A stretch of 39,835 nucleotides of DNA, taken from positions 1 through 39,835 of IMG/VR virus record IMGVR_UViG_3300010158_000153; one strand, written 5' to 3'. The DNA comes from a virus. A program made the translations under genes and the position numbers. Below the pieces are notes generated by a model. It worked only from the letters and a program-made list of their open reading frames with translations. It was not told the origin of the DNA and made no database searches. How positions within the stretch are numbered: the first letter of the stretch is position 1; each line of letters opens with the position of its first letter. This document shows positions 7,428 to 36,492 of the stretch, one piece after another.

Positions 7428-7435
7428 TATAAATA
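7428..7435 (+). promoter_or_regulatory. Perfect T4-like late promoter box (TATAAATA)
   Basis: TATAAATA exactly matches the T4 late consensus. It is followed by a 27-base spacer containing AAGGA (7452-7456) and the GroES ATG at 7463. It is the only clear promoter before the 12-kb plus-strand run to 19422, so it is the likely main late promoter of the oxygenase/halogenase genes. Confidence 0.75.
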
Positions 7436-7462: not shown

Positions 7463-7798
7463 ATGCCAATTTTGAGACCAATTCACGATAGATTGCTGGT
7501 TAAAAGAGAAGACGCACAAACAACAACCAGTGGCGGTATTGTTTTAACAGGTTCTTCTGTAGATGAAAAAACTTCAAAAGGATTAATTGTGGCCGCAGGC
7601 CCGGGAAAATATTCTGAAAAAACAGGTGTGCTTATTCCTATGACCGTTAAAGTGGGCGAGAGAATTTTATTTCACCCTGCCGCAGGATCAAAAGTGGTCA
7701 TCGAGGGGGAAACATATTGGTGTATGCCCGAGTCGGATGCATGGGCCGTTATGGATCCAGATGAACCAACACCGTCTGTAGAATTTAAATTTGATTAA
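7463..7798 (+). CDS. GroES-like co-chaperonin (functional analogue of T4 gp31)
   Basis: The 111-residue protein has the GroES fold signature. It starts PILRPIHDRLLVKRED, then a mobile-loop region with TTTSGGIVL at residues 21-29, then KGLIVAAGPG, VKVGERILF and GETYWCMPESDAWAV. GroES caps the chaperonin. In T4 the phage cochaperonin gp31 replaces host GroES to fold the capsid protein gp23. Length and motifs are closer to bacterial GroES than to T4 gp31, and the hydrophobic mobile-loop tip (GIVL) is intact. It has its own late promoter and ribosome site. Its stop codon abuts the ATG of the first oxygenase gene, so it leads the tailoring operon. Confidence 0.9.
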   Translation: MPILRPIHDRLLVKREDAQTTTSGGIVLTGSSVDEKTSKGLIVAAGPGKYSEKTGVLIPMTVKVGERILFHPAAGSKVVIEGETYWCMPESDAWAVMDPDEPTPSVEFKFD

Positions 7799-8362
7799 AT
7801 GACTAACAGAGAATTATTAGAAGCTAATAACTTCTTTGTAGTTAGAGATTTTATACATCAGGATGGCGCCGAGATGATTGCCAACGACTTTAAAAAATAT
7901 TGTATTACAAATTTTGCTAAAGCTAAACCTGATAGCTATGTTCCAGGAAGTCCTGCTGTTTACGGACACGATGCTATTCAAGCAATTTTATTTACGAAAA
8001 TCTTTTACATGAACGATTTAGTTGGTGAAAGATTATATCCTACATACTGTTATGCAAGATGGTATAAGACTGGTGCTGAATTACACAAACATACCGATGC
8101 CGAAGCGTGTGAAATTAGTGTTAGTGTAAATTTAGCAGGCGACGAGTGGCCAATCTATATGACTAGGCCAGATGGATCATCTGAAGGTATAGTTTTAAAG
8201 AAAGGCGATGCCGTCGTTTATAAAGGCGCAAAATCTTTACACTGGCGTGAAAAGTTCAAAGGAAAAGAATGTGTTCAAGCATTTTTGCACTATGTAAAAA
8301 TATTTGGTCCAAATTATCATCATGCATTTGACATGGTGCGTAATCCCCAAGGGTCAATATGA
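7799..8362 (+). CDS. 2-oxoglutarate/Fe(II) oxygenase-like protein 1
   Basis: A 187-residue double-stranded beta-helix protein. Likely iron ligands are H98 and D100 in KHTDAE and H148 in SLHWREKF. YARWYKTGAELHKH leads into the first ligand and KKGDAVVYKGAKSLHW is the usual GD-loop before the distal His. A canonical 2OG-binding Arg is not obvious in the final strand (ECVQAFLHY); Lys156 or a neighbouring residue could serve. Enzymes of this fold hydroxylate or otherwise oxidise amino-acid side chains, nucleic acids or small molecules. The substrate is unknown. The ATG follows the GroES stop directly, and the gene ends in an ATGA overlap with the next. Confidence 0.78.
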   Translation: MTNRELLEANNFFVVRDFIHQDGAEMIANDFKKYCITNFAKAKPDSYVPGSPAVYGHDAIQAILFTKIFYMNDLVGERLYPTYCYARWYKTGAELHKHTDAEACEISVSVNLAGDEWPIYMTRPDGSSEGIVLKKGDAVVYKGAKSLHWREKFKGKECVQAFLHYVKIFGPNYHHAFDMVRNPQGSI

Positions 8363-8952
8363 TCAATTATCATTTTCCAACAGCCATATTATCGGAGTTT
8401 AACCCAATTTTAGCAAATGCCATGTTGCCAGTTGCTAGGAAGTATTTAGACAACCCTGAATTTGCCAGTAAGAAATGGGATTACAATACTACTTTTGGAT
8501 ATAACAATTCAGGTGGCATTGCCTACATGCCTGATATAGAACCTTTTAGAATTTTTATAGAAAAAACAGGAAAAAAATATCTTCAAGACTTGGGTTACAG
8601 TACACAAGGCCTAGACTTTTTTTCCTTTGTTTTTGTTAGTGAAATGTTTGACGGTGCGTTCCATGAAGAGCATACACACCCCGAAGCAATATTATCAGGA
8701 TTATTATATTTGCAAGCACCAGAAGGTTCGGCCTCTTTGATATTAACTGACCCAAGACCGTTTAGAGATTTTGTCCATCTTGACAAATTAAATGATCGAC
8801 CAACTAGCACTAATACTTCTGAAGTGATAATAACTCCAAAAAAAGGAATGTTTTTAATGTGGGAAGCATGGCTTCCGCACCTTGTTCCGAGAACACGTAA
8901 TAAAGATGACGGAAGAATTACTATGGTTTTTAATCTTTGTAGGAAAAGATAA
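8359..8952 (+). CDS. 2OG-Fe(II) oxygenase-like protein 2 (TIGR02466-type)
   Basis: The 197-residue sequence has the pattern of the putative 2OG-Fe(II) family TIGR02466: HEEHTHPEAILSGLLYLQAP at 102-121, DPRPF at 131-135, and KKGMFLMWEAWLPHLVPRT with distal H174, followed by R186 in GRITMVFN. The proximal pair is H105-x-H107 rather than the usual His-x-Asp/Glu, a feature of this subfamily as I remember it. Whether the carboxylate ligand comes from elsewhere or is missing is undecided. It is linked to its neighbours by ATGA (upstream) and TAATG (downstream). Confidence 0.75.
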   Translation: MINYHFPTAILSEFNPILANAMLPVARKYLDNPEFASKKWDYNTTFGYNNSGGIAYMPDIEPFRIFIEKTGKKYLQDLGYSTQGLDFFSFVFVSEMFDGAFHEEHTHPEAILSGLLYLQAPEGSASLILTDPRPFRDFVHLDKLNDRPTSTNTSEVIITPKKGMFLMWEAWLPHLVPRTRNKDDGRITMVFNLCRKR

Positions 8953-9653
8953 TGGCCAATTCTCATAAACTTGATAAAACATCTCATCCGCTTGCAGGTA
9001 CTGTAATTTGTAAAAACAATTTTTTTAATAATCCTAAAAAAGTTATAGAGTTGGCCAATCGACAAACATACGAAGGATCTGAACGATTTCCAGGAAAACG
9101 CACAATTAACCTGTTGGAATCTAAAGATCCTGCGACTAAAGAATTTGGAATATTCTTTGCTAAAAAAATTGCAAAAGAAGTATTCCCAGGTATTAAACGA
9201 TTTGTGATACATATTAGTTTTCATATTAATGATGTGTACGATGACGATCATGCAAACTCGGGGTGGATACATAACGACGATGTTACACTGGCAGGGCTTG
9301 TATATTTAAACGAAGACGAAGTTAGTTTTGACACCGGTACTAGCATTTTCCTTAAACAAGGTCAGCGTGATTTTAGTATCGAGGATTATGTTTCTAGAAA
9401 AGAATTTAATGTAAGTGGTATTGCTACAGATCAATATAAACAAGATTTAGATAATAATCATGCTAATTTTTCAGAGACAGTAAAGATAGGAAACTTGTTT
9501 AATAGGTTAATCGCATATGATTCAAATCTGTGGCATCGGCCTAATAATTTTAAAACCAAGTCTAGCCAGCCTAGAACCACGCTACTATTTTTTATTGACT
9601 TTTACGAATTTGAGTCAGCCGATGTCGGACCTCAAAGTAAATGGGTAGACTGA
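8952..9653 (+). CDS. 2OG-Fe(II) oxygenase-like protein 3 (DUF6445-like)
   Basis: A 233-residue protein whose core reads GWIHNDDVTLAGLVYLN at residues 104-120, placing iron ligands at H107 and D109. LIAYDSNLWHRPNNF gives the distal H195, and R208 in QPRTTLLFF is a candidate 2OG anchor. This layout resembles the DUF6445 branch of the oxygenase superfamily. An insert of about 60 residues between the first ligand strand and the distal His (about 125-180) carries lysine- and asparagine-rich sequence. Function is unknown. Translational coupling with gene 2 is through TAATG, and the next ATG is one base after the stop. Confidence 0.75.
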   Translation: MANSHKLDKTSHPLAGTVICKNNFFNNPKKVIELANRQTYEGSERFPGKRTINLLESKDPATKEFGIFFAKKIAKEVFPGIKRFVIHISFHINDVYDDDHANSGWIHNDDVTLAGLVYLNEDEVSFDTGTSIFLKQGQRDFSIEDYVSRKEFNVSGIATDQYKQDLDNNHANFSETVKIGNLFNRLIAYDSNLWHRPNNFKTKSSQPRTTLLFFIDFYEFESADVGPQSKWVD

Positions 9654-9654
9654 C

Positions 9655-10293
9655 ATGCCTGATGTTATAGAGATTCCGTTATTTCCCGTCCCTTTATTTA
9701 AATTAAAGGTAACAAATCATGCCAAGATTAAAAAATATTTGATGGATAATATCTATCCTCATTTTTTAAAGAATGGCGTTAACGACACAGCGGCAAATGT
9801 ATATACTGATTACATTCCAGGCGCTGTTAAAGCGCCATGGGCTATGTTGTCTAAATTCTACGACAAAGATATAACAGAATTTTTAAAAACTACAGGTATA
9901 GATTTTAATAAAGGGTGGAGTTACGACCTTACTTGCTGGTACGGCATGATGACTGACACAAACAATACACTAGTTCATGACCATACTGGTGGGCCCAGTA
10001 ATATACAATGGTCAGGAGTACACTATATTGAGTTAGATACATCCAACACTAACGGTACAATATTTTTAAATCCCAATGCACGAATGATGAAGGGCGTTGT
10101 TCCTACTAAAGATACTACAAAACTTCCTGATTTATATCGTCCATACGACAAGCAATGCACAGTAGAAGAAGGCGATCTAGTGTTATTTCCAAGTTGGTTA
10201 GATCATCGAACACCTGACTATTCGGGCGCATTGAGGGTTGTAGTTGCCATGAATATTATGTTAAAATTAGATGGCGAAATTATAGGATATTAA
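9655..10293 (+). CDS. 2OG-Fe(II) oxygenase-like protein 4 (TIGR02466-type)
   Basis: A 212-residue protein beginning with IEIPLFPVPLFKLKV, an N-terminal strand typical of TIGR02466-like phage oxygenases. The metal site region is LVHDHTGGP (H108-x-H110), then WSGVHYIELD. The distal part VEEGDLVLFPSWLDHRTP gives H184, followed by R194 in GALRVVVAMN. As in protein 2 the proximal motif is HxH, here HDH with an Asp between the two His. Substrate unknown. One base separates it from each neighbour, suggesting a single translated block. Confidence 0.76.
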   Translation: MPDVIEIPLFPVPLFKLKVTNHAKIKKYLMDNIYPHFLKNGVNDTAANVYTDYIPGAVKAPWAMLSKFYDKDITEFLKTTGIDFNKGWSYDLTCWYGMMTDTNNTLVHDHTGGPSNIQWSGVHYIELDTSNTNGTIFLNPNARMMKGVVPTKDTTKLPDLYRPYDKQCTVEEGDLVLFPSWLDHRTPDYSGALRVVVAMNIMLKLDGEIIGY

Positions 10294-10294
10294 T

Positions 10295-10969
10295 ATGACA
10301 GCTATTAATTTTACAAATGTAGGATTTTTAATAGAGGATTTGAATCCCTTTGTGTTCCAACGTATTAAAAAAGAAGCACAAATACATAAAAAAGATTTTG
10401 AAGAGTCGGGTGGATTAGAGACTTCTAAAGATCTATTACGAGCTTACGGCAAACGAAAATTTGGGTATACCAAAGAATACACGATTACTCCAGAAACTAC
10501 AGATTTATTAATGAAGGAAGTATTTAAATTTGTTGATAAATTTGAAGAAACTTTTAATTATTTTAACAGGATGTTTAATTACACTGTTAACATTGATCAA
10601 ATTGCATCTAGACTAGAGCTTGAAAGAGTTTGGATGAATTTTCAACGTCCTGCTGAATTCTTGCCAATGCATAACCATTCCGGGATTTACAGTTTTGTGT
10701 TATGGGTACATGTACCTTTTAATATTGAAGACGAAAAAGACAAAGAGGCTAATCAGGACCTTGTAAAAAATTCAACTGGCAATTTTGAATTTATGTATAC
10801 AGATGCATTAGGAAAACTAACCAGTCATTTTTTGCCTGTCGATCGACGTTGGGAAGGAAAGATTGCTATTTTCCCAGCTGAATTGCAACACCATGTTTAT
10901 CCTTTTTATACGTCTGATGACGTTAGGATATCCTTAGCCGGTAACATAAGATTAGGAATGAAATCATGA
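10295..10969 (+). CDS. 2OG-Fe(II) oxygenase-like protein 5
   Basis: A 224-residue protein. Oxygenase core residues are H126-x-H128 in LPMHNHSGIYSFVLWVHVP, H199 or H200 in GKIAIFPAELQHHVYPF, and R211 in DDVRISLAGN. This RISLAGN ending with a hydrophobic strand is the usual 2OG-anchoring strand. The N-terminal 100 residues are helix-rich and charged. An insert of about 15 residues (EDEKDKEANQD, about 145-156) lies between strands. Substrate unknown. Its 3' end overlaps the next gene as ATGA. Confidence 0.75.
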   Translation: MTAINFTNVGFLIEDLNPFVFQRIKKEAQIHKKDFEESGGLETSKDLLRAYGKRKFGYTKEYTITPETTDLLMKEVFKFVDKFEETFNYFNRMFNYTVNIDQIASRLELERVWMNFQRPAEFLPMHNHSGIYSFVLWVHVPFNIEDEKDKEANQDLVKNSTGNFEFMYTDALGKLTSHFLPVDRRWEGKIAIFPAELQHHVYPFYTSDDVRISLAGNIRLGMKS

Positions 10970-11571
10970 ATTTTGAAAAATACGAGTTTAATGGATTTAT
11001 CGGAATTTTTGAAAACTATTTTAAAAATGCCTACTTAGATGAACTAGTTAGCTATTATGATTCAATGTCCAAACTATCGTTACATTACCGAGATAATATT
11101 CCTAAACATAGAAAAGACGACGAACAATTATTTTTGTTAAATCACAATGTAATTAATACTGTGAATCCAAAAAATATAAATCATTTCCTTGAAGTGTTGT
11201 GGGAGAAAATATTTCCAATTTATACAGAAAAATTTAGCATATTGCAAGACGTATCTTATAAAGTAGATCAAATTAAAATGAAGAAAATTGCACCTGGCGA
11301 AGGTTTTCATCAGTGGCATTACGAATCGTTATATGAAAATTCTAGAAGAAAAATAGTAATACAACTGTATATGAACAACATCGATGAAGCTGGAGAAACT
11401 GAATTTCTTTATCAGAATACTCGTGTAGTTCCTAAAAAAAATAAATTGTTAATATGGCCAGCAGACTGGACTCACACACATCGTGGAAACCCTCCAATCG
11501 GTGACACTGACAAGTATATTTTAACCACCTGGTTAATAGAAATAGACGATGAAAATAAAGGTAGACGATGA
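10966..11571 (+). CDS. Prolyl 4-hydroxylase-like 2OG-Fe(II) oxygenase 6
   Basis: A 201-residue protein of the P4H-like type common in marine phages. GEGFHQWHYES at 111-121 supplies H118 and E120 (H115 is an alternative). RRKIVIQLYMNN and AGETEFLYQ form the central strands. LLIWPADWTHTHRGNPP gives H170 or H172, and K183 in DKYILTTWL replaces Arg as the 2OG anchor, as in collagen-type prolyl hydroxylases. Carboxylate ligand E instead of D is tolerated in related phage P4Hs. A protein or peptide substrate is plausible but unproven. Linked by ATGA on both sides. Confidence 0.8.
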   Translation: MNFEKYEFNGFIGIFENYFKNAYLDELVSYYDSMSKLSLHYRDNIPKHRKDDEQLFLLNHNVINTVNPKNINHFLEVLWEKIFPIYTEKFSILQDVSYKVDQIKMKKIAPGEGFHQWHYESLYENSRRKIVIQLYMNNIDEAGETEFLYQNTRVVPKKNKLLIWPADWTHTHRGNPPIGDTDKYILTTWLIEIDDENKGRR

Positions 11572-12326
11572 AAATAAAATTTAATATTAACGACTCCCTT
11601 GCATTAGAGCATTGGCCGCCAATTCTTGCTAAAGACTTTTTGCCCGAATGGTATACTAAACTGCCAGAGGCTAAAGAGTCGTATGCGTTCGACGAGATTG
11701 TTACAAAAAATGTGCGGGCGTGTGTACCTGTTAGTGATTTGATGTCGTCGGGGTATATTATTCGTGCAACGTTTGAAGTTAGAGTTTCTGAAAAACTTGT
11801 AAATTTTGCGCCGGCAATGAAAATACAAACTGCACTTGAAGTAAAAGACGGTAGTTTTAGCGATACAAATGCTACCGTAGCAAAGAATTCAGATTTAGAA
11901 AAAATGTTTGGATTAAACCCAAACGGTCCTGTATCTATATTCGAAGAGCCCACTTGTCCTATGAAGTCTCAAGATAAAAAGAGAGGAAAATATTTCAAAT
12001 TTGAATCTCCGTGGTCTATTCAAACGCCACCCGGGTATAGTTGCTTAGTAATGCAACCATACTATTTTTACAATCAAGATGTACACATTTTGCCTGCTAT
12101 TATAGACACAGATAAGTTTGATAAAAAAATTCCAGTGATTGGTTTCTTAACAGGAAAAAGCGAAGAAGTACGATTTTTTTGTGGCGATCCATTACTACAT
12201 ATTATTCCATTTAAGCGAGACGATTGGGAAGCAGAATTTACTACTGACAAAATACTAGACAAATCAAAATTTTTCTTGTATAATGCTTATAAACGGATCT
12301 TCCATTCTCCTAAGAGTTTTAAATGA
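11568..12326 (+). CDS. Unknown-function family, paralogue A
   Basis: This 252-residue protein is the first of three tandem paralogues. Shared landmarks are LPEWYTKLP near residue 25, CVPVSDLMSSGYIIR near 51, SPWSIQTPPGYSCLV near 145, DTDKFD near 178, and CGDPLLHIIPFKRDDW near 205. I associate this pattern with a conserved phage family, possibly DUF6065, but cannot confirm the name. No His-x-Asp iron triad, P-loop or Rossmann motif is visible, so enzyme class is undetermined. Compared with paralogue B it carries about 20 extra residues around 95-125. ATGA overlaps join it to the P4H-like gene before and to paralogue B after. Confidence 0.75.
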   Translation: MKIKFNINDSLALEHWPPILAKDFLPEWYTKLPEAKESYAFDEIVTKNVRACVPVSDLMSSGYIIRATFEVRVSEKLVNFAPAMKIQTALEVKDGSFSDTNATVAKNSDLEKMFGLNPNGPVSIFEEPTCPMKSQDKKRGKYFKFESPWSIQTPPGYSCLVMQPYYFYNQDVHILPAIIDTDKFDKKIPVIGFLTGKSEEVRFFCGDPLLHIIPFKRDDWEAEFTTDKILDKSKFFLYNAYKRIFHSPKSFK

Positions 12327-13024
12327 ACAATAACATAACTTTTTCAACTAGCGATCTCGAAACATTAGAAATGTTTCCTGTTTTGCCTGCTTCAAAATTA
12401 ATACCCGATTGGTATAAAGATACTCCTGTAGAAGTAGGAGAGTATATGGATGTTACTGTGCCACACACACCAACTATTAAACGATGTGTTCCAGTATTAG
12501 ACTATATGACTACTGGATATATTATACGTGCATCTTACGAAATACAAGTTAAAAAAGAAGTAGACGAACATTTTTTTAATAGCTTTGAAGCTCGTTGCCG
12601 TCATGCTGACAAAGTAGTAGGAAAACATCCGTGGCAGCAGGCACAAGTTGCAGTCGACGGCCAAAAAAGTCACTACATGAAGATATATCAGCCTTGGCAT
12701 ATTAAGACGCCGCCGGGATATAGCTGTATGATATTCGACCCGTATTATCATTTTAGAAAAACATTTTCAATCTTTCCAGGCGTTGTCGATACAGACAAGC
12801 ATGACGAGCCTATTGGTATTGTTGCACTAGTTCAACAAAAAGAGTTTACTATTATGCCTGGAGATCCGTTAGTTGTAGTCTTTCCTTTTAAAAGAGATGA
12901 TTGGACTATGTCGTCGGAAGTACGTACAGACGAGTATAATAAATCTAGTTTTAAGTATCGCATGAGTACATACTGGTCTGGAATATATGCTAAATTACTA
13001 CATTCTAAAAAAACTTACAGATAA
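12323..13024 (+). CDS. Unknown-function family, paralogue B
   Basis: A 233-residue protein aligning end to end with paralogue A: IPDWYKDTP, CVPVLDYMTTGYIIR, QPWHIKTPPGYSCMI, VVDTDKHDEP and PGDPLVVVFPFKRDDW. The strictly shared PPGYSC, DTDK and PFKRDDW segments point to a conserved binding or catalytic site still under selection in both copies. No known catalytic motif was recognised. It lies in the middle of the oxygenase run. It starts on an ATGA overlap and ends two bases before paralogue C. Confidence 0.75.
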   Translation: MNNNITFSTSDLETLEMFPVLPASKLIPDWYKDTPVEVGEYMDVTVPHTPTIKRCVPVLDYMTTGYIIRASYEIQVKKEVDEHFFNSFEARCRHADKVVGKHPWQQAQVAVDGQKSHYMKIYQPWHIKTPPGYSCMIFDPYYHFRKTFSIFPGVVDTDKHDEPIGIVALVQQKEFTIMPGDPLVVVFPFKRDDWTMSSEVRTDEYNKSSFKYRMSTYWSGIYAKLLHSKKTYR

Positions 13025-13026
13025 TT

Positions 13027-13722
13027 ATGTTCACATTCTTTTTTAAAAAACCAAAAATTGTACTAGATTGTTTTACACATCATCCTGAAGTAGAAACGTT
13101 ATTCCCCCTAGTAAATGCCGAAGAACGATTGCCCGATTTCTGGAAAAAATTACCAACTACAGTTAAGCATAATGGTCCAAGTCGTGGTACCATGAAAACA
13201 TGCCCGGGTGTAACGGGATTATTTAGAACTGGATTTATAATTCAAAGTTGGCAAGACTTTTGGATCAGCACTGAAAATTCAATGTTAAAGTGGTTTCCTG
13301 AAGAAAGTGCCGAAGGACATAATCAAAAACAATGGGGCGATTACCTTAACGACTATCAACATCTGAAATTAAATAGCCCGTGGAAGATCAAAGAAAAAAC
13401 TGGTGTAAATTTTCTCTTTACTAATTGTTTTTGGCATGATGATAAATTTAAACCGTTCGTAGTAAACGGCATGGTTGACTACAAATATCAACATACTACC
13501 AGTGTTAACTTATTAATTCCGAAAAAAATGTTTCCGGCAGATTTAACTATTCCTGCGGGTAAGGAATTAGCTCACGTAATTCCGTTATCCGAATCCGATG
13601 TAATGATTAAGATGCATACGGTGGATTATAGTGAATACTTAAAACAAGTAGGTGAAATGTCCTTTACCCTTAATGGACAATACTACAAGCGTAGAAAAAT
13701 ACTGAAAGATAAAGGACTGTAA
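13027..13722 (+). CDS. Unknown-function family, divergent paralogue C
   Basis: The 231-residue product keeps the skeleton of paralogues A and B (LPDFWKKLP, then CPGVTGLFRTGFIIQ, SPWKIKEKTGVNFLF and PAGKELAHVIPL). It has lost the most conserved residues: PPGYSC becomes KTGVNF, DTDK becomes DYKY, and PFKRDDW becomes PLSESDV. It may be a non-catalytic partner or a copy with a new role. The N-terminus MFTFFFKKPK is short, hydrophobic, then basic. It is linked to the next oxygenase gene through TAATG. Homology to A and B is inferred from motif order and spacing. Confidence 0.7.
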   Translation: MFTFFFKKPKIVLDCFTHHPEVETLFPLVNAEERLPDFWKKLPTTVKHNGPSRGTMKTCPGVTGLFRTGFIIQSWQDFWISTENSMLKWFPEESAEGHNQKQWGDYLNDYQHLKLNSPWKIKEKTGVNFLFTNCFWHDDKFKPFVVNGMVDYKYQHTTSVNLLIPKKMFPADLTIPAGKELAHVIPLSESDVMIKMHTVDYSEYLKQVGEMSFTLNGQYYKRRKILKDKGL

Positions 13723-14387
13723 TGTCAGTTCGACCAATTTTTCCTGTTTTAATATATGAACATCAAGGTACTCAACAAGAAATATTCTTGGTGCAGGATG
13801 AAATTAGGAAGAAATTACCTTTAATAGAAGCTACAGATACTTTTTCAAATCCTCCAGGGTGGGACGATGGCGTTCAAACTAACATAAAATCTAGATATAA
13901 TACTATAGAAGATTTTGAGCTAGTAAATTTAAGAAAGTATATTGAAAAACATGTTAAGCAATATGTCGAACAATCAAAAGCATGGCATCCTGCACCAGTA
14001 TCTTTACAGCATAGCTGGATTAATAAAACATCAAAAGGTCAAAAACAAGACTGGCATTTTCATCAAGATTCTACGATATCTGGAACTTACTATTACCAGA
14101 CTACCGGTAATGACGGCGATTTTGGGCTGATGAATCCTGTACCTTGGATGCAACAAGAAATATTTCCTGTAGGGCACGGGGTGGCAAAATATGCAGAAAT
14201 TAAGCCGGCCGTGGGGAAAATTATATTATTCCCCGGGTGGTTGCAACATTGTGTATACGAAAATAAAACAGATAGTACCAGGATTTCAATATCATGGAAT
14301 CTTCATAGAAATCATTTTGTAGATACTATCAAGAACCAGATCATTGTTGACGGGTGGCATGCAAAAATAAATACTGAAAGGACATGA
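13722..14387 (+). CDS. 2OG-Fe(II) oxygenase-like protein 7 (TIGR02466-type)
   Basis: A 221-residue protein starting VRPIFPVLIYEHQG. Metal-site segment DWHFHQDSTISGTYYYQ gives H112, H114 and D116, so both HxH and HxD readings are possible, with H114 and D116 the better classic pair. PAVGKIILFPGWLQHCVYEN gives the distal H176, and R187 in STRISISWNLH is the 2OG anchor. All four functional positions are present, so an active enzyme is likely. It is separated from the first halogenase gene by nine bases containing GAAGGA, so the two are probably expressed together. Confidence 0.8.
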   Translation: MSVRPIFPVLIYEHQGTQQEIFLVQDEIRKKLPLIEATDTFSNPPGWDDGVQTNIKSRYNTIEDFELVNLRKYIEKHVKQYVEQSKAWHPAPVSLQHSWINKTSKGQKQDWHFHQDSTISGTYYYQTTGNDGDFGLMNPVPWMQQEIFPVGHGVAKYAEIKPAVGKIILFPGWLQHCVYENKTDSTRISISWNLHRNHFVDTIKNQIIVDGWHAKINTERT

Positions 14388-14396
14388 AGGACTTAA

Positions 14397-16016
14397 ATGA
14401 AAAAACCAATTAAACGAATTATTATTGTGGGCGGTGGAAGCTCTGGATGGATGAGCGCGGCAATGTTATCTAAGCAGTTTCCAAATATAGAAATTGCTCT
14501 AGTAGAAAGTCCAGATATTCCTATTATTGGAGTCGGTGAGTCTACCCTAGGAACTATTAATCAATACTTGGGCCTGCTAGGGCTTGAAGATAAAGATTGG
14601 ATGGAATATTGTAATGCTACATATAAGTTGGCTATCAAATTTACAGATTTTTACGAGCAAGGCAAGTCTTTTTACTATCCATTTGGTTTAAAAGATTTAC
14701 AAAATACCCAGCAAGGCGGAACTGATTGGTACGTGAAGAAAGTTATGAATCCAGAGTTGGATAACAATGACTTTTATGAAAGTTTTTACAGTTCAATGCC
14801 TATGATTTATAAATCAAAGATATTTGACAATGCAGACGGACAACTACCTGGATTCAGTTTTCGAAATGACACAGCTTACCACATGGATGCTACGTTATTT
14901 GGAGAATTTTTAAAAGAAAAGGTATGTATACCTAACGGCGTTGTACATATCAGTGCCAATGTCGAAGGCGTACTTCAAGAAGAAGATGGCTTTGTTGCTG
15001 GACTAAAACTAGATAACGGTGACATTATTGATGCAGACTTATACATCGATTGTTCGGGTTTTAAATCGTTATTGCTAGAACAAACTATGGGTGTAGAGTT
15101 TGAGTCTTATTCAAGTCATCTGCCTAATAATAAAGCATGGGTTACACATATTCCTTATGCACACAAAGAACGAGAGATGGAGAATGTTACAAACTGTACT
15201 GCTATCGGAAACGGATGGGTATGGAATATTCCCCTTTATAACCGGATCGGTAGTGGCTATGTGTTTTCTAACAAGTTTATCAGCGAAGAAGATGCATTAA
15301 AAGAATACATGGATCATCTTAATAGCGATAACATGACTCTAAAAAATCCAATTCGAAGCCAATTTTTAGAGTTTAGGCTGATAGATATTAAAAATGGAGT
15401 ACACCGTAAGGCTTGGGAAAAGAACGTTGTTGGTATTGGTTTAAGTTATGCGTTTGTTGAGCCATTAGAAAGTACTGGCTTGCTGAGTGTGCAAGAAATG
15501 TTATTAAAATTATGTGAAACGTTGCATAACAGACAAGTTAACAAAATACATGTTGACCACTTTAACTTTATCTGTAATAATATTATGGATGGTTTTAGAA
15601 ACTTTGTAACATATCATTATGTATTTTCGTCACGCCGTGATACAGAATATTGGAGATATATCACAGAGCAAATTGAGATGGATTCTTTAATGTTAGATCG
15701 TAAATTCTCACAAGTTCCGTCGGCAACTAGCGACCTAGCTGTTAAATTGTTACAAGTACATAATCTTCCAGCAGATCCTAGCATGGGGGGTATGCCCGAT
15801 ATATTGGTAGGTATGAACACATTGCCATGCTCTGTAACTCAGCTGGAGATTACAAAAATGATAATCAAAGCTCGACACGGACAAGTACCGGAATTCTACA
15901 CAAGTCAAACACAAGATTACTGGGATCAGAAAAAAGAATATATAGAATCTCTAGTAAACGATGCGCCATCGCACTATCAATATCTCAAAGATAACATTTA
16001 CAATGGCAAAGAGTAA
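14397..16016 (+). CDS. Flavin-dependent (tryptophan-type) halogenase 1
   Basis: A 539-residue halogenase of the PrnA/RebH type. FAD-binding GGGSSGW lies at residues 12-18 and GVGEST at 45-50. Catalytic Lys is K77 in ATYKLAIKF. The family signature WxWxIP is present as WVWNIP at 274-279, and EPLESTG at 355-361 supplies the conserved Glu-Ser pair. These enzymes use FADH2, oxygen and halide to form HOX, which is passed to the Lys and then to an electron-rich substrate. Marine phage halogenases are known, for example the characterised cyanophage enzyme VirX1, which favours iodination. No flavin reductase is encoded here, so host FADH2 would be needed. It is a close paralogue of halogenase 3, including the shared C-terminal PSHYQYLK. 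Confidence 0.9.
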   Translation: MKKPIKRIIIVGGGSSGWMSAAMLSKQFPNIEIALVESPDIPIIGVGESTLGTINQYLGLLGLEDKDWMEYCNATYKLAIKFTDFYEQGKSFYYPFGLKDLQNTQQGGTDWYVKKVMNPELDNNDFYESFYSSMPMIYKSKIFDNADGQLPGFSFRNDTAYHMDATLFGEFLKEKVCIPNGVVHISANVEGVLQEEDGFVAGLKLDNGDIIDADLYIDCSGFKSLLLEQTMGVEFESYSSHLPNNKAWVTHIPYAHKEREMENVTNCTAIGNGWVWNIPLYNRIGSGYVFSNKFISEEDALKEYMDHLNSDNMTLKNPIRSQFLEFRLIDIKNGVHRKAWEKNVVGIGLSYAFVEPLESTGLLSVQEMLLKLCETLHNRQVNKIHVDHFNFICNNIMDGFRNFVTYHYVFSSRRDTEYWRYITEQIEMDSLMLDRKFSQVPSATSDLAVKLLQVHNLPADPSMGGMPDILVGMNTLPCSVTQLEITKMIIKARHGQVPEFYTSQTQDYWDQKKEYIESLVNDAPSHYQYLKDNIYNGKE

Positions 16017-16603
16017 TGATAGTAAGTCGGTCTCCTCTTGATGATAATCGGAAAGGATTGCCAAGTGTAATTACAGTGCCATTTATTACCAGCGAAAAAT
16101 GTGACGAGATAGTCGAATCATGTAATAATAACAAATGGTCTGAAGGCACTGTTTTTAAATTTGGGCAATTCATAAAGGCTAAAGAGCATCGTAGTGTTCT
16201 TGTTGCCCGAGATGGATTAGATGATGAAGTGCTAGACAATATTTTTAAGACTATTTTTAAAATCAATAGTAAGTTATTTAGATTTCATTTAGATGGGTTT
16301 AACGAAAAAGATGCTCCGCTTGTTTTTAAATATTCAGCAGAGAGAGAAGATCATTACCAGTATCATACCGATTTGCTTATTGATAGCTTTATTAGAAAAT
16401 TATCATTTTCTATACAATTATCAGATCCTAACGATTATGAAGGCGGAGATTTAGAATTTAACCCAAGCGTTAAGGAGCCAAAAATTAGACATAAAGGTAA
16501 TATGACCATTTTTCCTTCTTATATGACTCATCGTGTAACTCCAGTAACTCGTGGAACTCGCTATGCAATAGTAGGTTGGATTTATGGTCCCGAATTTAAA
16601 TAA
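16016..16603 (+). CDS. 2OG-Fe(II) oxygenase 8 (PKHD/PiuC-like)
   Basis: The 195-residue protein carries the most canonical oxygenase site of the island: YQYHTDLL with H117 and D119, NMTIFPSYMTHRV with H172, and R182 in GTRYAIVGWIYG. The arrangement LSFSIQLSDPNDYEGGDLEF at 129-148 is typical of PKHD-type hydroxylases related to PiuC and P4H. The N-terminal part (VITVPFITSEKCDEIV) matches the usual first helix of this group. It is placed between halogenases 1 and 2, with a TAATG junction upstream and a 20-base overlap downstream. Confidence 0.87.
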   Translation: MIVSRSPLDDNRKGLPSVITVPFITSEKCDEIVESCNNNKWSEGTVFKFGQFIKAKEHRSVLVARDGLDDEVLDNIFKTIFKINSKLFRFHLDGFNEKDAPLVFKYSAEREDHYQYHTDLLIDSFIRKLSFSIQLSDPNDYEGGDLEFNPSVKEPKIRHKGNMTIFPSYMTHRVTPVTRGTRYAIVGWIYGPEFK

Positions 16604-17792
16604 AAAACGGTTAGGAGTTATAGGAGTCGGCACAGCGGGAATTGCATCTATTTCTCATATTATTCCGTGGCTTGGTAATGTATGGGATGTAGTTTCTATA
16701 TACGATCCTTCGACTCCTATATTAGGTATAGGTGAAAGCACTAATCCTAATTTTATTTCAACACTGGAAAACGGAACTGGATTTAATCTAACTACAGATT
16801 TAGATCAGATCGACGGCACTCTTAAATTTGGTACCAAATATATAAACTGGCGAGAGTACGACTGGGTTAATCCATTATTTGGAGCAGGTCACGCTTTACA
16901 TTTTAACAATTTTAAACTAAAAGAATTTGCTTTTGAAAGATTTAAAAAACTGTGGCCTGAAAAATTTAAAGTTTTAGAAGGCAAAGTAACTGATGTTACA
17001 AATGAATTCCAGTGTGTGCATGTAATAGTAGACAATACTGTTGAAAAATTTGACTATGTTATTGATTGCAGAGGATTTCCGTCTGATTATACCAGCTATA
17101 ACATAAGCGATTGCTCTCCGCTCAATCGGTGTTTTGTTTATAGTATGCCGCCGCATATGGCTGATCAATTTTTATGTACTGAACATATTGCAACAAAGCA
17201 CGGTTGGACTTTTGGTATTCCATTAACTACTAGACATACCTATGGTTACTTGTTTAATGATTCTATAAGCACTGAAGAACAAGTACTAGACGACATGTCT
17301 ACAATGTTTTTGACCAATGTAACTAAAGATGATTTAAAAGAATATAAATTTAAGTCATACTATACTAAAAAAGTATTAGATAAGCGTATATTAAAAAACG
17401 GTAACAGAGCTTTATTCTTTGAACCGTTAAGTGCAAGCAGTATTTTTTGCTATATTGAGATTGCCGAATTATTCTTACATCATTTAAACAAACAAGAAAA
17501 ATATAATGAAATGTTTGTAAACACTGAATTTACTAAACTAGCAAAATCTCTAGAAGATATGTTGTCTTTTTTGTATCACGGTGGTACTAACTTTGATACT
17601 GAATTTTGGAAATATGCCAAAGATAAAGCAAATGTGAGATTAAATAACAGCAAAGAATTTGCAAATACTATCACTGAATATAAACAAATGCACAAGAATG
17701 GAACATCACTGACTGGAAGATCATGGTTCTTTACTCCTCATAATTTAAGAGTCATTGACGAAAAAATGAATTACAACTATTTTAAAGAATAA
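16584..17792 (+). CDS. Divergent, probably altered flavin halogenase-like protein 2
   Basis: At 402 residues this is about 140 shorter than its two relatives. The FAD-binding fold is retained (GVIGVGTAG at 11-19, GIGEST at 48-53), and a Lys lies where the catalytic one is expected (K81 in GTLKFGTKYINW). The halogenase signatures are degraded: WxWxIP reads WTFGIP (208-213), and EPLESTG reads EPLSASS (280-286), so the conserved Glu is a Ser. DYVIDCRGF matches the FAD-contacting IDCSGF of the neighbours. It may be inactive, act on flavin differently, or have a scaffolding role. The reading frame is intact, so it is not simply a pseudogene. The start is fixed by the FAD motif at residue 11. Confidence 0.75.
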   Translation: MVPNLNKKRLGVIGVGTAGIASISHIIPWLGNVWDVVSIYDPSTPILGIGESTNPNFISTLENGTGFNLTTDLDQIDGTLKFGTKYINWREYDWVNPLFGAGHALHFNNFKLKEFAFERFKKLWPEKFKVLEGKVTDVTNEFQCVHVIVDNTVEKFDYVIDCRGFPSDYTSYNISDCSPLNRCFVYSMPPHMADQFLCTEHIATKHGWTFGIPLTTRHTYGYLFNDSISTEEQVLDDMSTMFLTNVTKDDLKEYKFKSYYTKKVLDKRILKNGNRALFFEPLSASSIFCYIEIAELFLHHLNKQEKYNEMFVNTEFTKLAKSLEDMLSFLYHGGTNFDTEFWKYAKDKANVRLNNSKEFANTITEYKQMHKNGTSLTGRSWFFTPHNLRVIDEKMNYNYFKE

Positions 17793-17796
17793 CAAT

Positions 17797-19422
17797 ATGA
17801 AAAAACCTATAGAAAAAATTGTCATTGTAGGGGGCGGAAGTGCCGGTTGGATGACTGCCGCACTACTATCTAGAAAGTTTCCTAACAAAAAGTTTGTCTT
17901 GGTCGAAAGTCCCGATGTGCCAACCGTAGGAGTAGGTGAATCTACTCTAGGTACAATAAATTTATTCTTACACTTTTTAGGGTTAGAAGATAAGGACTGG
18001 ATGGAATATTGTAATTGTACCTATAAACTAAGCATTCAGTTTACCGATTTTTATAAAGTAGGTGAAACATTTTACTATCCGTTTGGGACAAAAGATAGAA
18101 AAAATACTATCAGCGGCCTTACTGATTGGTATCATAAAAAAGTGTTGTATCCAGATACTCCATGGAATGATTTTTACGAATGTTCATATAGTACAATGCC
18201 CTTGATATATAACAATAAGATATGCGACAATGAAACAACTCCTAAATTAGAAGGCTACAGTTTTAAAAATGACACAGCATATCATATGGATGCACAGTTA
18301 TTTGGAAAATTCTTAAAAGAAAAATTTGCTATTCCTAACGGAGTTGAACATATTCAACAACATATAACGGAACTTAATAAAGATAGCGATGGCTATTTAG
18401 ATCATCTTGTTCTAAAAAATGGAGACACAGTCAAAGGTGACTTGTTTATCGATTGCACTGGTTTTAGAAGTTTATTACTAGAACAAACCATGGGAGTAGA
18501 GTTTGAAAGTTTTAAAAAATGGCTACCTAATGATCATGCATGGACTTGTCATGTTACTTACAATGATAAGGAATTAGAGATGAAAAATGTCACAAACTGT
18601 ACAGCCTATAACAACGGTTGGGTTTGGAATATTCCGTTATATCATCGTATCGGCAGTGGCTATGTGTTTAGCAGTGATTTTATCAGTGTAGAAGATGCTT
18701 TACAAGAATACAAAGCCTATCTTAATAGTGATAAAATGACATACTACGATCCCAATCGTGCTGATAAATTAGAATTTAGATTGGTCAAAATTAAGAACGG
18801 TACTCATAGAAAAGGATGGGAAAAAAATGTTGTAGCCGTTGGACTAAGCTATGCATTTATTGAGCCATTAGAAAGTACCGGATTACTAAGCGTTCAAGAA
18901 ATGTTAATTTTATTATACCAGACTTTGGAAAATGAACAAGTTAACAAAATGCATGTTGATTGGTACAATCAATTGGCCAACAAGGTCATGCAAGGATTTA
19001 AGCATTTTGTAACATATCATTATGTACTAAGCTCTCGCAGAGACACACCATACTGGCAACATGTTACTGAAAATATCGAAATGGATCGCAGGCTAATTGA
19101 CAAAGATTTATCAGATATGCGTACTATGACTTCGGAGTTTGGAGAAAAGTTATTAGAAGACCACGAGATGGGTAATAATTTAGGAGGCATCCCAGATATA
19201 TTTGTAGGTAATCACATACTACCAGTTAATCGACAGTCTGTAGAAAAAATCGGATATGATCAATTATATGTTATTGGTGGCGGATCACCAGAGCAAACAC
19301 TGCTTAGACCTAGCACACTTCAATACTGGAACATGAAGAAAAAGAAAAACGAATTAGCGGCGGAAAAATGCCCTAGTCATTATCAGTATTTAAAACATAG
19401 ATTCTTTAACGGAAAAGAATAA
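17797..19422 (+). CDS. Flavin-dependent (tryptophan-type) halogenase 3
   Basis: A 541-residue full-length halogenase: GGGSAGW at 12-18, GVGEST at 45-50, K77 in CTYKLSIQF, WVWNIP at 275-280, and EPLESTG at 356-362. It aligns with halogenase 1 along its whole length, so the two arose by duplication and have diverged strongly in DNA sequence. Differences gather in the substrate-side segments, for example around residues 95-125 and in the C-terminal 70 residues, which hints at different substrates. It is the last gene of the operon; its stop codon touches the terminator hairpin. Four bases separate it from halogenase 2. Confidence 0.9.
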   Translation: MKKPIEKIVIVGGGSAGWMTAALLSRKFPNKKFVLVESPDVPTVGVGESTLGTINLFLHFLGLEDKDWMEYCNCTYKLSIQFTDFYKVGETFYYPFGTKDRKNTISGLTDWYHKKVLYPDTPWNDFYECSYSTMPLIYNNKICDNETTPKLEGYSFKNDTAYHMDAQLFGKFLKEKFAIPNGVEHIQQHITELNKDSDGYLDHLVLKNGDTVKGDLFIDCTGFRSLLLEQTMGVEFESFKKWLPNDHAWTCHVTYNDKELEMKNVTNCTAYNNGWVWNIPLYHRIGSGYVFSSDFISVEDALQEYKAYLNSDKMTYYDPNRADKLEFRLVKIKNGTHRKGWEKNVVAVGLSYAFIEPLESTGLLSVQEMLILLYQTLENEQVNKMHVDWYNQLANKVMQGFKHFVTYHYVLSSRRDTPYWQHVTENIEMDRRLIDKDLSDMRTMTSEFGEKLLEDHEMGNNLGGIPDIFVGNHILPVNRQSVEKIGYDQLYVIGGGSPEQTLLRPSTLQYWNMKKKKNELAAEKCPSHYQYLKHRFFNGKE

Positions 19423-20105
19423 AAAAGCACCTTACGGTGCTTTTTATTATGGGTTGATGCGTTAGGATCTATCCAAGGTTGCTCTGCTTCAGGGTGATGT
19501 TTAAATATTACAAATGGAACAGCAGGTGGAACATATCCAGGTTCTTCCGCCATTCTTGCCATCATGTGTTCAATGCCTGCACTAGAATCAATTTTATGTT
19601 GTGCGGCTGTTTTCAAATGCACTAGATCTATAAGTGTTACAGGATCTAATGGAATCGGATCTGTCCAAGTTGGGTCAGCTAGCAATTCTTTTCTAATATA
19701 ATCTGCTTTTTCTTTGATGCCAATTTGTGCTCGCTCAACCGCCATATCGTGAATATGCTGGTGCGGATTTTCCCACATCCATTCTAGAGTTTTTATTTCA
19801 TCGTCGGCTAGTTCAAATTCGTATTCTACACGATCATCATCGGGCAAATCTCTTTCCATAGGAGTCCAGTTTGGATCCTTTGGTAACATATTAGGAGCCG
19901 CATTTATAATTCCTTCTCGTGTGGCCGGCAAATGTGTTGCACCAGAATCAATAATGGCCTGAGTGGCCTGTGGCAGGAATGCATCTTCTGCAATTCTAAC
20001 CCGCCAATCGACCATATTTTGAAGCCAATCAGCCACATCGACTGCTATGTGTTCCATTAAGTAGGCTTCTAGTTTAGTAAAATGTATTGAAAATTTCTGT
20101 GTCAT
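19383..20105 (-). CDS. Conserved phage protein of unknown function, tail/fibre module
   Basis: A 240-residue acidic protein. The N-terminus KLEAYLMEHIAVDVADWLQN, then NMVDWRVRIAEDAFL, resembles small proteins next to fibre genes of marine T4-like phages, but I cannot assign a role. ELADDEIKTLEWMWENPHQH (about 100-119) suggests an alpha-helical fold. A second half has PLDPVTLIDLVHLK. The last 25 or so residues (from STHNKKHRK on) are encoded by the terminator hairpin and by the antisense of halogenase 3, so the original stop was probably lost or displaced. A GGAGA site at 20113-20117 and a late box upstream support the start at 20105. Confidence 0.75.
   Translation of the reverse strand: MTQKFSIHFTKLEAYLMEHIAVDVADWLQNMVDWRVRIAEDAFLPQATQAIIDSGATHLPATREGIINAAPNMLPKDPNWTPMERDLPDDDRVEYEFELADDEIKTLEWMWENPHQHIHDMAVERAQIGIKEKADYIRKELLADPTWTDPIPLDPVTLIDLVHLKTAAQHKIDSSAGIEHMMARMAEEPGYVPPAVPFVIFKHHPEAEQPWIDPNASTHNKKHRKVLFYSFPLKNLCFKY
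19422..19445. terminator. Bidirectional rho-independent terminator
   Basis: AAAAAGCACC, loop TTAC, then GGTGCTTTTT form a perfect 10-base-pair stem with A- and T-tracts on either side. It therefore works in both directions between the plus-strand operon and the minus-strand fibre module. On the minus strand the hairpin lies inside the open reading frame of the convergent gene, upstream of its stop codon. Confidence 0.88.
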
Positions 20106-20121: not shown

Positions 20122-20129
20122 TATTTATG
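20122..20129 (-). promoter_or_regulatory. T4-like late promoter box for the 240-residue protein
   Basis: The minus strand reads CATAAATA followed by C, one mismatch from TATAAATA, 16 bases upstream of the ATG. It overlaps the last codons of the preceding fibre gene. The GGAGA ribosome site lies between the box and the start. Confidence 0.5.
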
Positions 20130-21111
20130 CGATTAAATGTCCGTTAAAGAAAGAATGAGAAGCATGGAATCTGTTGTTGTTGCTAGTCCAGTTACCCCAT
20201 ACTCGACAGTTATCGCCTGCGGCGAGATATAACTGTTGTTGCCAGTGGATCCCGTGTGGATAAGGACTTCCATTACCGTGGCTAAAAATACCATGCGGCA
20301 CACGACCTGACGGCAAGCCTGACACAGCACCATTCTTGCCCAAGCTCATGTGCATGTGTCCTGTGGTACTGGTCCAGCTAGTATCGTTATGTTGATAAGT
20401 TAACCATTGAAAGCAGTAATGTCCTGCTACCGGAGCAGTCCATACACCGTTGGTATAATCAAATCCACTTCCGTTACGTTGATATCCAGTCCACCCAAAG
20501 CCGCTGTTGATTGCTTGCCAGCCAGTTCCGCTACCTAATTGGTTATTATACAACCAGCCACCGGTTCCATGACTTTGAAACATGGGTGTACCTTGGGTTT
20601 GTGGTGAGCCTGCACCCATAACAAATCTGCCGCCTGCATCAAATCGAGCACGTTCTGTGCCAGCAGTGGTAATACGAACAGTATTATCATTGTTAAAAAA
20701 TATGCCAGTATTAGTGTTGCCGGCCAATGCTACTGCTGGTGTGCTTGCACTACCTTGTATAGTTTGTAGTGCGCCGGCCATGCTACTACCGTTTTTGTTT
20801 AACGGTGTAAATCCTAAATTTGCAACTGCGGCGCCACTAGCTAGTTTTGTGCTGTCTACTCCTGCTGAACTGCTAATATCTGCGTTGACAACGGTTCTGT
20901 ATGTAACAGTGTTTGCGCCAGCATTACTAATATCAAGTGTAGAGGCTAGCTGTGCGGTTCCAACAGAATTGTTAGCCAACGTAGTAGAGGTAACTGCGCC
21001 AGGCGCAAGGTTACCACTAGTTACGCTGTTGTTACCAAAATCGGTACTAACTAGAGTGTTTGGAACAAAACTATCTGTTGCGATACGTTTAAAACTTGAG
21101 TAGGTTGCCAT
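20125..21111 (-). CDS. C1q-like tail fibre paralogue 1
   Basis: A 328-residue fibre protein. The N-terminus MATYSSFKRIATDSFVPNT is nearly shared by the next two genes. The middle carries fibre-type repeats (NADISSSAGV, LGFTPLNKNGSSMAGAL, NTNTGIFF near 140) expected to form a trimeric beta-shaft. From about residue 215 a C1q/TNF-like head follows: GVWTAPVAGHYCFQW, YLAAGDNCRVWGN and the closing FFNGHLIA. Such heads bind ligands at fibre tips, so this is probably a receptor-binding or accessory fibre. It ends 19 bases before the downstream gene and starts nine bases after the previous paralogue. Confidence 0.8.
   Translation of the reverse strand: MATYSSFKRIATDSFVPNTLVSTDFGNNSVTSGNLAPGAVTSTTLANNSVGTAQLASTLDISNAGANTVTYRTVVNADISSSAGVDSTKLASGAAVANLGFTPLNKNGSSMAGALQTIQGSASTPAVALAGNTNTGIFFNNDNTVRITTAGTERARFDAGGRFVMGAGSPQTQGTPMFQSHGTGGWLYNNQLGSGTGWQAINSGFGWTGYQRNGSGFDYTNGVWTAPVAGHYCFQWLTYQHNDTSWTSTTGHMHMSLGKNGAVSGLPSGRVPHGIFSHGNGSPYPHGIHWQQQLYLAAGDNCRVWGNWTSNNNRFHASHSFFNGHLIA
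21088..21111 (-). repeat. Near-identical 24-bp gene starts in the three fibre paralogues
   Basis: The first 24 bases of the three fibre genes (21088-21111, 22069-22092, 23016-23039) all encode MATYSSFK and differ at only a few positions, while the downstream sequences diverge strongly. This points to tandem duplication with the start conserved, either for protein docking at the fibre base or through recombination between copies. Confidence 0.75.
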
Positions 21112-21120
21112 TTAGTTCTA

Positions 21121-22092
21121 TTATCCTATTAAGTATCCGCACCACAAACTATGATCGCCGTGCATCCGTCCGTTGTTTCCACCAAAATATGGTTGTGGTG
21201 ATGAAAAATCAGTTGCATTTAGATAAATTTCTATGCTAGCTGAAATACCCGGGGTGTAGTTATTGCTAAGTTGGTGGCCATATAACGTATGAGGCTGACG
21301 ACCAGTTGTCCTGTCAGTACTCGCTGATCCATTATAGCCGATGTTGTAGTGTATGTAACCAGTGCTGTTGTTAGCATCGTTGTAGTAATATGTTTGTGAG
21401 TAGAAGCTGTACCATCCTGCTACAGGAGCTGTAAATCTGCCTCCCGGAGCAAAGTTACTGCCACCTTTCTGTGCAGTAACTTGCCAAGTCCACCAACCGT
21501 TGGCCACTGTAAGTTCGTTCCAGTTACTTACACCTACGTTAAAACTATTTCTATACAACCACCCACCATTTCCAGAAGCAGTAAACGCCGGAATGTTTGG
21601 TTGCATTTGTGCAACGCCGCTGCCGTATTTGTTAAAGTTGCTGGCCACAGCACCTGCTGTTGTTATATTAACTTGGTTTGTAGTTGGAAAATAAATTCCA
21701 GTATTAGTATTGTTACTAGCGGCTACACCCGGAGCACTTACACTCGATGCGGGAATTATCAAATTGCCTGTTAAACTATCGCCTGCTTTGTTAACTGTGG
21801 TATAACCTATGTTTGTAGTACTAGCGCCAGAAGCAAGTTGACTGCCTGTAATCGAGCCGCTGGCAAAATCTCCGTTGACAAACGGACGATAGGTCATAGT
21901 TTTTCCACTAAAGTCTAAAGTAGTTGCCAGTTGCGTAGTTCCAACTGTAGCGGCAGCAATGTCTGCTGTTCTAACACTACCAGAGGCAAATGCGGCTGTA
22001 GGAACTCCACCAGTAGCAATATCAGCGTTGGTAATATTTTGGCTTATAATGGCCTGATTGTCAATTTGTTTAAAACTTGAATATGTTGCCAT
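21121..22092 (-). CDS. C1q-like tail fibre paralogue 2
   Basis: A 323-residue paralogue with the same plan: MATYSSFKQIDNQAI, shaft repeats (VNGDFASGSITGSQLASG, IGYTTVNKAGDSLTGNL, NTNTGIYF), then a C1q-like head from about residue 210 (GGRFTAPVAGWYSFYS, closing SLWCGYLIG). The head is Asn/Tyr/Trp-rich and clearly different in its loops from paralogues 1 and 3, as expected for a diversifying ligand-binding face. The ATG lies two bases after the preceding gene, with AGG in TAGGTTAATT as a weak ribosome site. Confidence 0.8.
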   Translation of the reverse strand: MATYSSFKQIDNQAIISQNITNADIATGGVPTAAFASGSVRTADIAAATVGTTQLATTLDFSGKTMTYRPFVNGDFASGSITGSQLASGASTTNIGYTTVNKAGDSLTGNLIIPASSVSAPGVAASNNTNTGIYFPTTNQVNITTAGAVASNFNKYGSGVAQMQPNIPAFTASGNGGWLYRNSFNVGVSNWNELTVANGWWTWQVTAQKGGSNFAPGGRFTAPVAGWYSFYSQTYYYNDANNSTGYIHYNIGYNGSASTDRTTGRQPHTLYGHQLSNNYTPGISASIEIYLNATDFSSPQPYFGGNNGRMHGDHSLWCGYLIG

Positions 22093-36484: not shown

Positions 36485-36492
36485 TATTTATA
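36485..36492 (-). promoter_or_regulatory. Perfect T4-like late promoter box for the giant fibre
   Basis: The minus strand reads TATAAATA followed by C, an exact match to the T4 late consensus, 20 bases upstream of the ATG and followed by AGAGGA (36474-36479). It lies in the 47-base gap after the preceding fibre gene and probably drives the giant fibre and the genes downstream of it. Confidence 0.75.

Follow-up and report, generated by a model that had tools for sequence, protein, structure and literature searches.

This study concerns the virus record IMGVR_UViG_3300010158_000153, which was analysed as one stretch of 39,835 bases (here referred to as the window). In it, a GroES-like co-chaperonin gene is followed on the plus strand by fourteen packed genes for 2-oxoglutarate (2OG) oxygenase-like proteins, halogenase-family proteins, and paralogues with a dUTPase fold, and the follow-up covered GroES and these fourteen genes. 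With evenly balanced confidence, the operon is read as a late module that would halogenate and hydroxylate the fibre tips of the phage itself, as judged from its linkage, its predicted timing, and the types of enzyme encoded. The sequence evidence behind this consists of the identity, catalytic residues, fold, and conservation of the genes, together with a late promoter box in common with the giant fibre gene and fibre linkage in two distant lineages. Fibre-tip modification appears to be the best reading because the module looks late and fibre-linked, encodes many divergent oxidative enzymes, includes no recognised scaffold genes, and contains halogenases of the VirX1 type, for which an unusually large, open active site has been described (PMC8407142).

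Gene content and predicted timing of the operon

The fourteen genes run from the end of GroES (7463-7798) to position 19422, neighbouring genes overlapping or being separated by no more than 9 nucleotides (nt); all 15 open reading frames (ORFs), as packed as the preliminary description had claimed, were recovered at the same positions. By Pfam and PHROGs, eight of the genes are 2OG-oxygenase-like, three belong to the PF04820 halogenase family, and three are phrog_7084/DUF6065 paralogues. The earlier count of eight, three, and three is thus exact by family, with the reservation that one halogenase-family gene (16584) is probably not a halogenase. The three paralogues form a single family (phrog_7084), as had been supposed, but are no longer unknowns, a dUTPase fold being recognised. 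The operon and its flanking signals are as follows.

7428-7435, plus strand: T4-type late promoter box TATAAATA 5' of the operon, ~28 nt ahead of the GroES ATG
7463-7798, plus strand: GroES-like co-chaperonin, operon head (PF00166, 8e-24)
7799-8362, plus strand: OG1, 2OG oxygenase (phrog_2954, mislabelled ferrochelatase), invariant HxD...H and prolyl-4-hydroxylase-like fold
8359-8952, plus strand: OG2, 2OG oxygenase-like (PF13759, HxH...H...R; 1.7e-17)
8952-9653, plus strand: OG3, 2OG-like (DUF6445/phrog_1644), invariant H107, D109, H195, and R208
9655-10293, plus strand: OG4, 2OG oxygenase-like (PF13759, 1.6e-11)
10295-10969, plus strand: OG5, 2OG oxygenase-like (PF13759, 2.4e-9)
10966-11571, plus strand: OG6, 2OG oxygenase with HxE...H (PF13640, 3.1e-9)
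11568-12326, plus strand: D1, phrog_7084/DUF6065 dUTPase-fold protein (Pfam, PHROGs, profile and fold matches)
12323-13024, plus strand: D2, phrog_7084/DUF6065 dUTPase-fold protein, invariant Cys55 (modelled, see below)
13027-13722, plus strand: D3, phrog_7084 dUTPase-fold protein (phrog_7084, 3.1e-20)
13722-14387, plus strand: OG7, 2OG oxygenase-like (PF13759, 7.3e-21)
14397-16016, plus strand: HAL1, flavin-dependent halogenase (PF04820), ~41% identity to VirX1, catalytic Lys, Glu, and WxWxIP
16016-16603, plus strand: OG8, 2OG oxygenase (PF13640), invariant H117, D119, H172, and R182
16584-17792, plus strand: HALs, short halogenase paralogue (PF04820), Lys kept and catalytic Glu lost
17797-19422, plus strand: HAL2, flavin-dependent halogenase (PF04820), 59% identity to HAL1
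19422-19445, no strand: 10-bp hairpin with flanking A/T runs, putative bidirectional terminator between convergent operons
36485-36492, minus strand: second TATAAATA box, 5' of the giant fibre gene, ~21 nt ahead of its start

The late promoter box noted earlier at 7428 is present and conserved in most relatives, where it typically occurs as a single copy in ~20 kb, starting 35-56 nt ahead of GroES. In the window, TATAAATA occurs twice (6.3 expected by shuffling), namely before the operon and before the giant fibre gene, and nowhere else. Because this box is common to both, the predicted timing of the operon fits late, fibre-like expression, and the shared, conserved box supports the fibre-tip reading. 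The hairpin behind the terminator proposed at 19422 is real, though terminator-like sites in general occur at chance frequency. Purifying selection was found on all operon genes tested against relatives of ~70% identity, with ratios of nonsynonymous to synonymous substitution (dN/dS) of about 0.05-0.3 where dS was finite, synonymous sites being saturated. Two contigs (L010 and L011) encode proteins identical to those of the window; no relatives at the DNA level were found in the phage collection.

Support for the eight oxygenases comes from Pfam or PHROGs matches to 2OG-like families for six, from DUF6445 for the seventh, and from phrog_2954 for the eighth. The two weakest assignments, OG1 and OG3, hold. 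OG1 is predicted to have the fold of a 2OG enzyme (predicted local distance difference test, pLDDT, 94.2); its top Foldseek match is the prolyl 4-hydroxylase of Pseudomonas putida (E 7e-10), followed by 2OG enzymes such as AlkB and PHD2. Its residues H98, D100, and H148 are invariant in 30 of 30 homologues, with R150 as the distal Arg, and the four OG3 residues listed above are kept in 27 of 27. The hallmarks of 2OG/Fe(II) enzymes, i.e., a double-stranded β-helix fold, HxD/E...H, and a distal Arg, are thus seen in OG1 by fold and residues and in OG3 and OG8 by residues, while OG6 shows HxE by motif only. The PF13759 members OG2, OG4, OG5, and OG7 carry HxH where HxD/E is expected. Across 26 homologues (alignment A10), the middle ligand position is His in 20 and Asp in 6, with the distal His and Arg conserved, which suggests a three-His iron site in most members of this family. 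Public annotations of these oxygenase families in cyanophages (ferrochelatase, minor coat protein, DNA endonuclease V) look like propagated misannotations.

The three halogenase-family genes match Trp_halogenase PF04820 at 1.5e-108, 3.9e-28, and 8.7e-111. In both HAL1 and HAL2, the GxGxxG and WxWxIP motifs are present along with the catalytic Lys and the Glu of LEST, and their nearest solved structure is VirX1 of Syn10, which belongs to the same halogenase subfamily as HAL1 and has the same catalytic motifs. In the halogenase tree, the window clade is separate from the VirX1 clade, so the recurrence of these genes does not reflect a recent transfer. In HALs, WxWxIP is replaced by WxFxIP and LEST by LSAS; because the latter change is conserved in orthologues, HALs is a maintained protein and probably not a halogenase.

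Linkage to fibre genes in two lineages

The module faces the following minus-strand genes.

19383-20105, minus strand: fib1, conserved protein between module and fibres, kept in relatives
20125-21111, minus strand: fibre-tip paralogue 1 (phrog_28766 tail fibre, 7.6e-7)
21121-22092, minus strand: fibre-tip paralogue 2
22095-23039, minus strand: fibre-tip paralogue 3, C1q-like C terminus (E 1.1e-4, just below the Pfam cut-off)
24063-36464, minus strand: giant tail fibre of 4133 amino acids (aa), candidate substrate or scaffold (phrog_9851 tail fibre, down to 4.9e-62)

In relatives at ~70% identity and in more distant ones, the layout persists while gene numbers change: the oxygenase count varies, halogenases range from one to four, and dUTPase-fold genes number three or four. 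Retrieval with the fibre sequence alone gave 35 loci; in each of the 29 whose sequence continues beyond the fibre array, the module is present in convergent orientation, and the other six stop too early. The second lineage consists of cyanophages. Syn10, S-CREM1, S-RIM44, Sf-CH3, and Sf-FR1 share the order giant fibre, tips, ~160-aa protein, halogenase(s), dUTPase-fold protein, and 2OG/JmjC array; Syn9 is named alongside Syn10 among the isolated cyanophages with fibre tips, halogenase, dUTPase-fold protein, and 2OG array. S-WAM1 and P-RSM6 have fibre tips, halogenase, and 2OG genes, and the dUTPase-fold gene was not detected in either. A full-length halogenase lies within ~3 kb of the Syn10-type Gly-rich fibre in 7/7 distinct phages, and near-full-length matches to the Syn10 dUTPase-fold protein come directly after the halogenase by coordinates in 14/14 records. 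The presence of the module both in all informative fibre-fetched loci and in T4-like cyanophages with another fibre type and a reversed gene arrangement supports the fibre-tip reading. Co-occurrence of the three families, proposed earlier as a check, was thus found in independent contigs as well as in isolated cyanophages.

The same tendency was seen in counts over loci. Halogenase loci, dereplicated to 60, have a 2OG gene as neighbour in 37 cases (random genes, 20.7; maximum 29 in 300 draws) and a dUTPase-fold neighbour in 18 (random genes, 4.1; maximum 11), and 14 of 43 dUTPase-fold loci have an adjacent 2OG gene, compared with 6.2 for random genes; the random genes come from the same loci, making these controls conservative and not independent of phylogeny.

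Like the window, the Syn10 locus combines fibre tips with halogenases, of which it has two, and with a phrog_7084 protein; its 2OG/JmjC array includes homologues of OG1 and DUF6445, and a VirX1-type gene lies inside the array. The locus differs in having one dUTPase-fold gene instead of three, a T4-like instead of a jumbo backbone, and fibres that lie upstream on the same strand and are Gly-rich (Gly_rich_2), whereas those of the window are convergent and C1q-like. Homology between the two fibres was considered, since iterated profiles gave E values down to ~1e-33, but Pfam assigns the cyanophage fibre to Gly_rich_2, and the two are therefore handled as different types with no homology claimed. 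In S-CREM1, as in the window, halogenase, phrog_7084 protein (annotated as triphosphate nucleotidohydrolase), and 2OG/JmjC array are found directly by the fibre genes, here following them.

The backbone of the window is, by sequence, of the jumbo-phage type (Phosso/PA5oct relatives) and not that of a typical marine T4-like phage: the neighbouring sheath stabiliser is 31-33% identical to those of Phosso and the PA5oct/Paride group. Among cultured phages, the C1q-like fibre has a match only in a Limnohabitans phage. In Paride, a cultured jumbo relative, genes for a structural protein, the sheath stabiliser, and NUDIX are followed by one uncharacterised 202-aa gene and a convergent tail fibre. 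Judged against this gene order, the module fills the interval that separates NUDIX from the convergent fibres, and that the equivalent slot of Paride holds a single gene beside a tail fibre lends support to the fibre-tip reading.

Several further features were observed around the module. The 19383-20105 ORF ends past the convergent hairpin and shares 40 nt with the 3' end of HAL2, which is not the case in relatives L013 and L017; its C terminus may come from a changed reading frame. On the minus strand at 36512-39808, upstream of the giant fibre, a 1098-aa protein is encoded that has a lectin domain of the LamG/ConA-like kind and matches to baseplate/fibre proteins. One group of relatives (L014, L015, L016, and L018) has an additional minus-strand ORF of 694 aa between Nudix and GroES.

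A predicted dUTPase fold that has lost dUTPase motifs

The D2 model (AlphaFold2, pLDDT 94.4) has only dUTPases among its top Foldseek matches, with VIA-align Z up to 12.5, and the phrog_7084 profile aligns with yeast dUTPase across motifs III and IV. The paralogues thus share with trimeric dUTPases a common fold (Z about 12) and traces of motifs III and IV: the motif III Asp (D156) is found in 94 of 111 family members and the motif IV Gln in 76 of 111, D2 of the window itself having V185. They differ from them in the loss of the motif I Asp (SGYI where dUTPases have AGYD, i.e., AGxD) and motif II (PRSS), and in the addition of Cys55, the sole fully invariant residue in the 111-member alignment. 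No motif V was found, the C terminus being modelled as a helix that lacks the Gly-rich motif. Since neither the motif I Asp nor motif II has survived and a helix stands in the place of motif V, the phrog_7084 paralogues are, on the predicted model, proteins with a dUTPase fold that are not dUTPases.

Both dUTPases and C1q-type domains are trimers. By analogy, the placement of three tandem dUTPase-fold paralogues next to C1q-like fibre tips, both of trimeric types, is suggestive. The role of these proteins is the weakest step of the proposal: they may be adaptors, nucleotide-binding regulators, or Cys-dependent enzymes. No paper on DUF6065 was found in the open-access literature. In bacterial genomes, DUF6065 genes are mostly standalone, in Sphingomonadales and other Alphaproteobacteria, and their context does not reveal a function. 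At six Sphingomonadales loci (L183, L185, L190, L194, L202, and L205), DUF6065 adjoins a conserved ~300-aa gene with the motif AIDWSGAKG or similar where read, and no halogenase is nearby. Haloarchaeal tailed viruses carry phrog_7084 homologues with no 2OG or halogenase genes nearby, e.g., Halorubrum tailed phage 7 (HRTV-7; L005, 9845-10735), where the homologue is close to thymidylate synthase.

Candidate substrates and meaning of the module

In the proposed mechanism, the flavin-dependent halogenases (two) and the 2OG-type oxygenases (up to eight) would act during virion assembly, halogenating and hydroxylating residues in the fibre (tip) proteins, whose genes lie next to the operon and converge on it. 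The three dUTPase-fold proteins, their dUTPase chemistry lost, would probably be trimeric substrate-docking or accessory subunits; HALs would be a non-halogenating partner, and the co-chaperonin may help the enzymes or the fibres to fold. The benefit could be changed receptor binding, stability, or adhesin-surface variation. The substrate, the chemistry at particular residues, the role of the dUTPase fold, and the benefit are what we infer from the data above. In favour of a protein substrate, the nearest folds of OG1 include a protein prolyl hydroxylase, and a precedent for viral prolyl hydroxylation of viral proteins may be offered by PBCV-1, which encodes a 2OG prolyl 4-hydroxylase with viral proteins as proposed substrates (Eriksson 1999, as reported in PMC9301287). 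PBCV-1 differs in being a eukaryotic algal virus with a single enzyme type. We know of no link between its prolyl 4-hydroxylase and a halogenase.

Two other substrates were weighed and are considered unlikely. The first is a secondary metabolite or surface glycan, in which free amino acids or a sugar-derived metabolite would be tailored to an antibiotic-like compound or a host-surface decoration. HAL1 and HAL2 are related to halogenases of free Trp, and comparable roles have been proposed elsewhere: metabolite synthesis or capsule decoration for the 10-gene cluster of S-SSM6a (2021 review of jumbo phages, PMC7824862), which resembles the window in combining a halogenase with 2OG/cupin enzymes, and antibiotic protection, along with host reprogramming, for the halogenase (PrnA) and 2OG array of S-CREM1, whose authors draw no fibre link in the available part of PMC9964418. 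The S-SSM6a cluster differs in including carbamoyltransferases, a HemK-like methylase, and sugar genes; no carbamoyltransferase or sugar/amino-acid scaffold gene was found in the operon, none of its genes was recognised as a scaffold-building, transport, or precursor-peptide gene, and the modules of Syn10, S-CREM1, and S-RIM44 likewise have no carbamoyltransferases, sugar enzymes, or recognised scaffold-synthesis or export genes. Expression that looks late and fibre-linked also speaks against a metabolite. A precursor-peptide product (ribosomally synthesised and post-translationally modified peptide) was rejected, the packed operon having no space for a precursor. The second, held to be similarly improbable, is the host: EF-Tu or ribosomal proteins could be modified, or consumption of 2OG could alter host nitrogen signalling. 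Drawdown of 2OG acting on NtcA has been published for cyanophages (PMC3037559), and the P. putida enzyme at the top of the OG1 fold matches is EF-Tu-bound. However, drawdown would not require eight divergent enzymes, and a host target does not account for the presence of halogenases and dUTPase-fold proteins, nor for the late box and the repeated fibre linkage. Hypermodification of nucleotides or DNA, in which dUTPase-fold proteins would handle pyrimidine nucleotides for the oxygenases and halogenases to modify, is suggested by the fold of the D paralogues and the thymidylate synthase next to the HRTV-7 homologue but is highly improbable, given the missing motifs, no TET/JBP-type gene, kinase, or glycosyltransferase recognised in the operon, and a location by fibres instead of replication genes.

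A number of observations weigh against fibre-tip modification. Linkage is not proof, fibre-neck regions may be hot spots for cargo genes, and the jumbo loci are one lineage, so that part of the linkage reflects gene order inherited from a common ancestor. In S-B64 (L249), a full-length halogenase is flanked by SbcC and a peptidase gene and is not near fibres; in HTVC008M, the halogenase adjoins the terminase; and many dUTPase-fold genes are located away from halogenases. A collagen-type substrate was rejected, the window fibres having no GXY runs or collagen-like repeats. No flavin reductase was recognised in the window, though the host may supply one. No modified virion residue has been seen so far, and the main text on the 14-protein virion proteome of S-CREM1 mentions no search for such modifications (PMC9964418). 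The dedicated late pathway proposed in the preliminary description is made more likely by co-occurrence elsewhere, by the box shared with the giant fibre, and by the position of the module by fibres in 29 of 29 informative loci and beside tips in cyanophages; that fibre proteins are the substrate is the part that remains inferred.

The preliminary description went too far in stating that no system of this composition had been described, as arrays of halogenase and 2OG genes are published for S-CREM1 (PMC9964418) and S-SSM6a (PMC7824862). Phage halogenases, 2OG arrays, and halogenase-2OG clusters in cyanophages are already known. Knowledge of 2OG oxygenases and halogenases in aquatic phages goes back to about 2010, and such genes are mostly classed as metabolic cargo. 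In cyanophages, they have been published as serving host metabolism or antibiotic protection (PMC3037559, PMC9964418, PMC2984593), and the open-access literature searched gave no substrate for them, nor a natural substrate for VirX1. The same literature yielded no description of the dUTPase-fold component or of a fibre linkage that recurs in two lineages, and these may be what is new here. The wider proposal, that at least two distant lineages halogenate and hydroxylate their own adhesins and that a catalytically repurposed family of dUTPase-fold proteins tethers the enzymes to the trimeric tips of the fibres, is tentative and somewhat doubtful. The fibre-tip position in two lineages and the common dUTPase-fold partner give a specific idea that is testable by mass spectrometry on cultured phages. 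If true, host-recognition proteins of phages would bear an undescribed layer of enzymatic modification, carbon-halogen bonds included; receptor-binding proteins would be chemically diversified after translation, and the natural substrate of VirX1-type viral halogenases would be identified.

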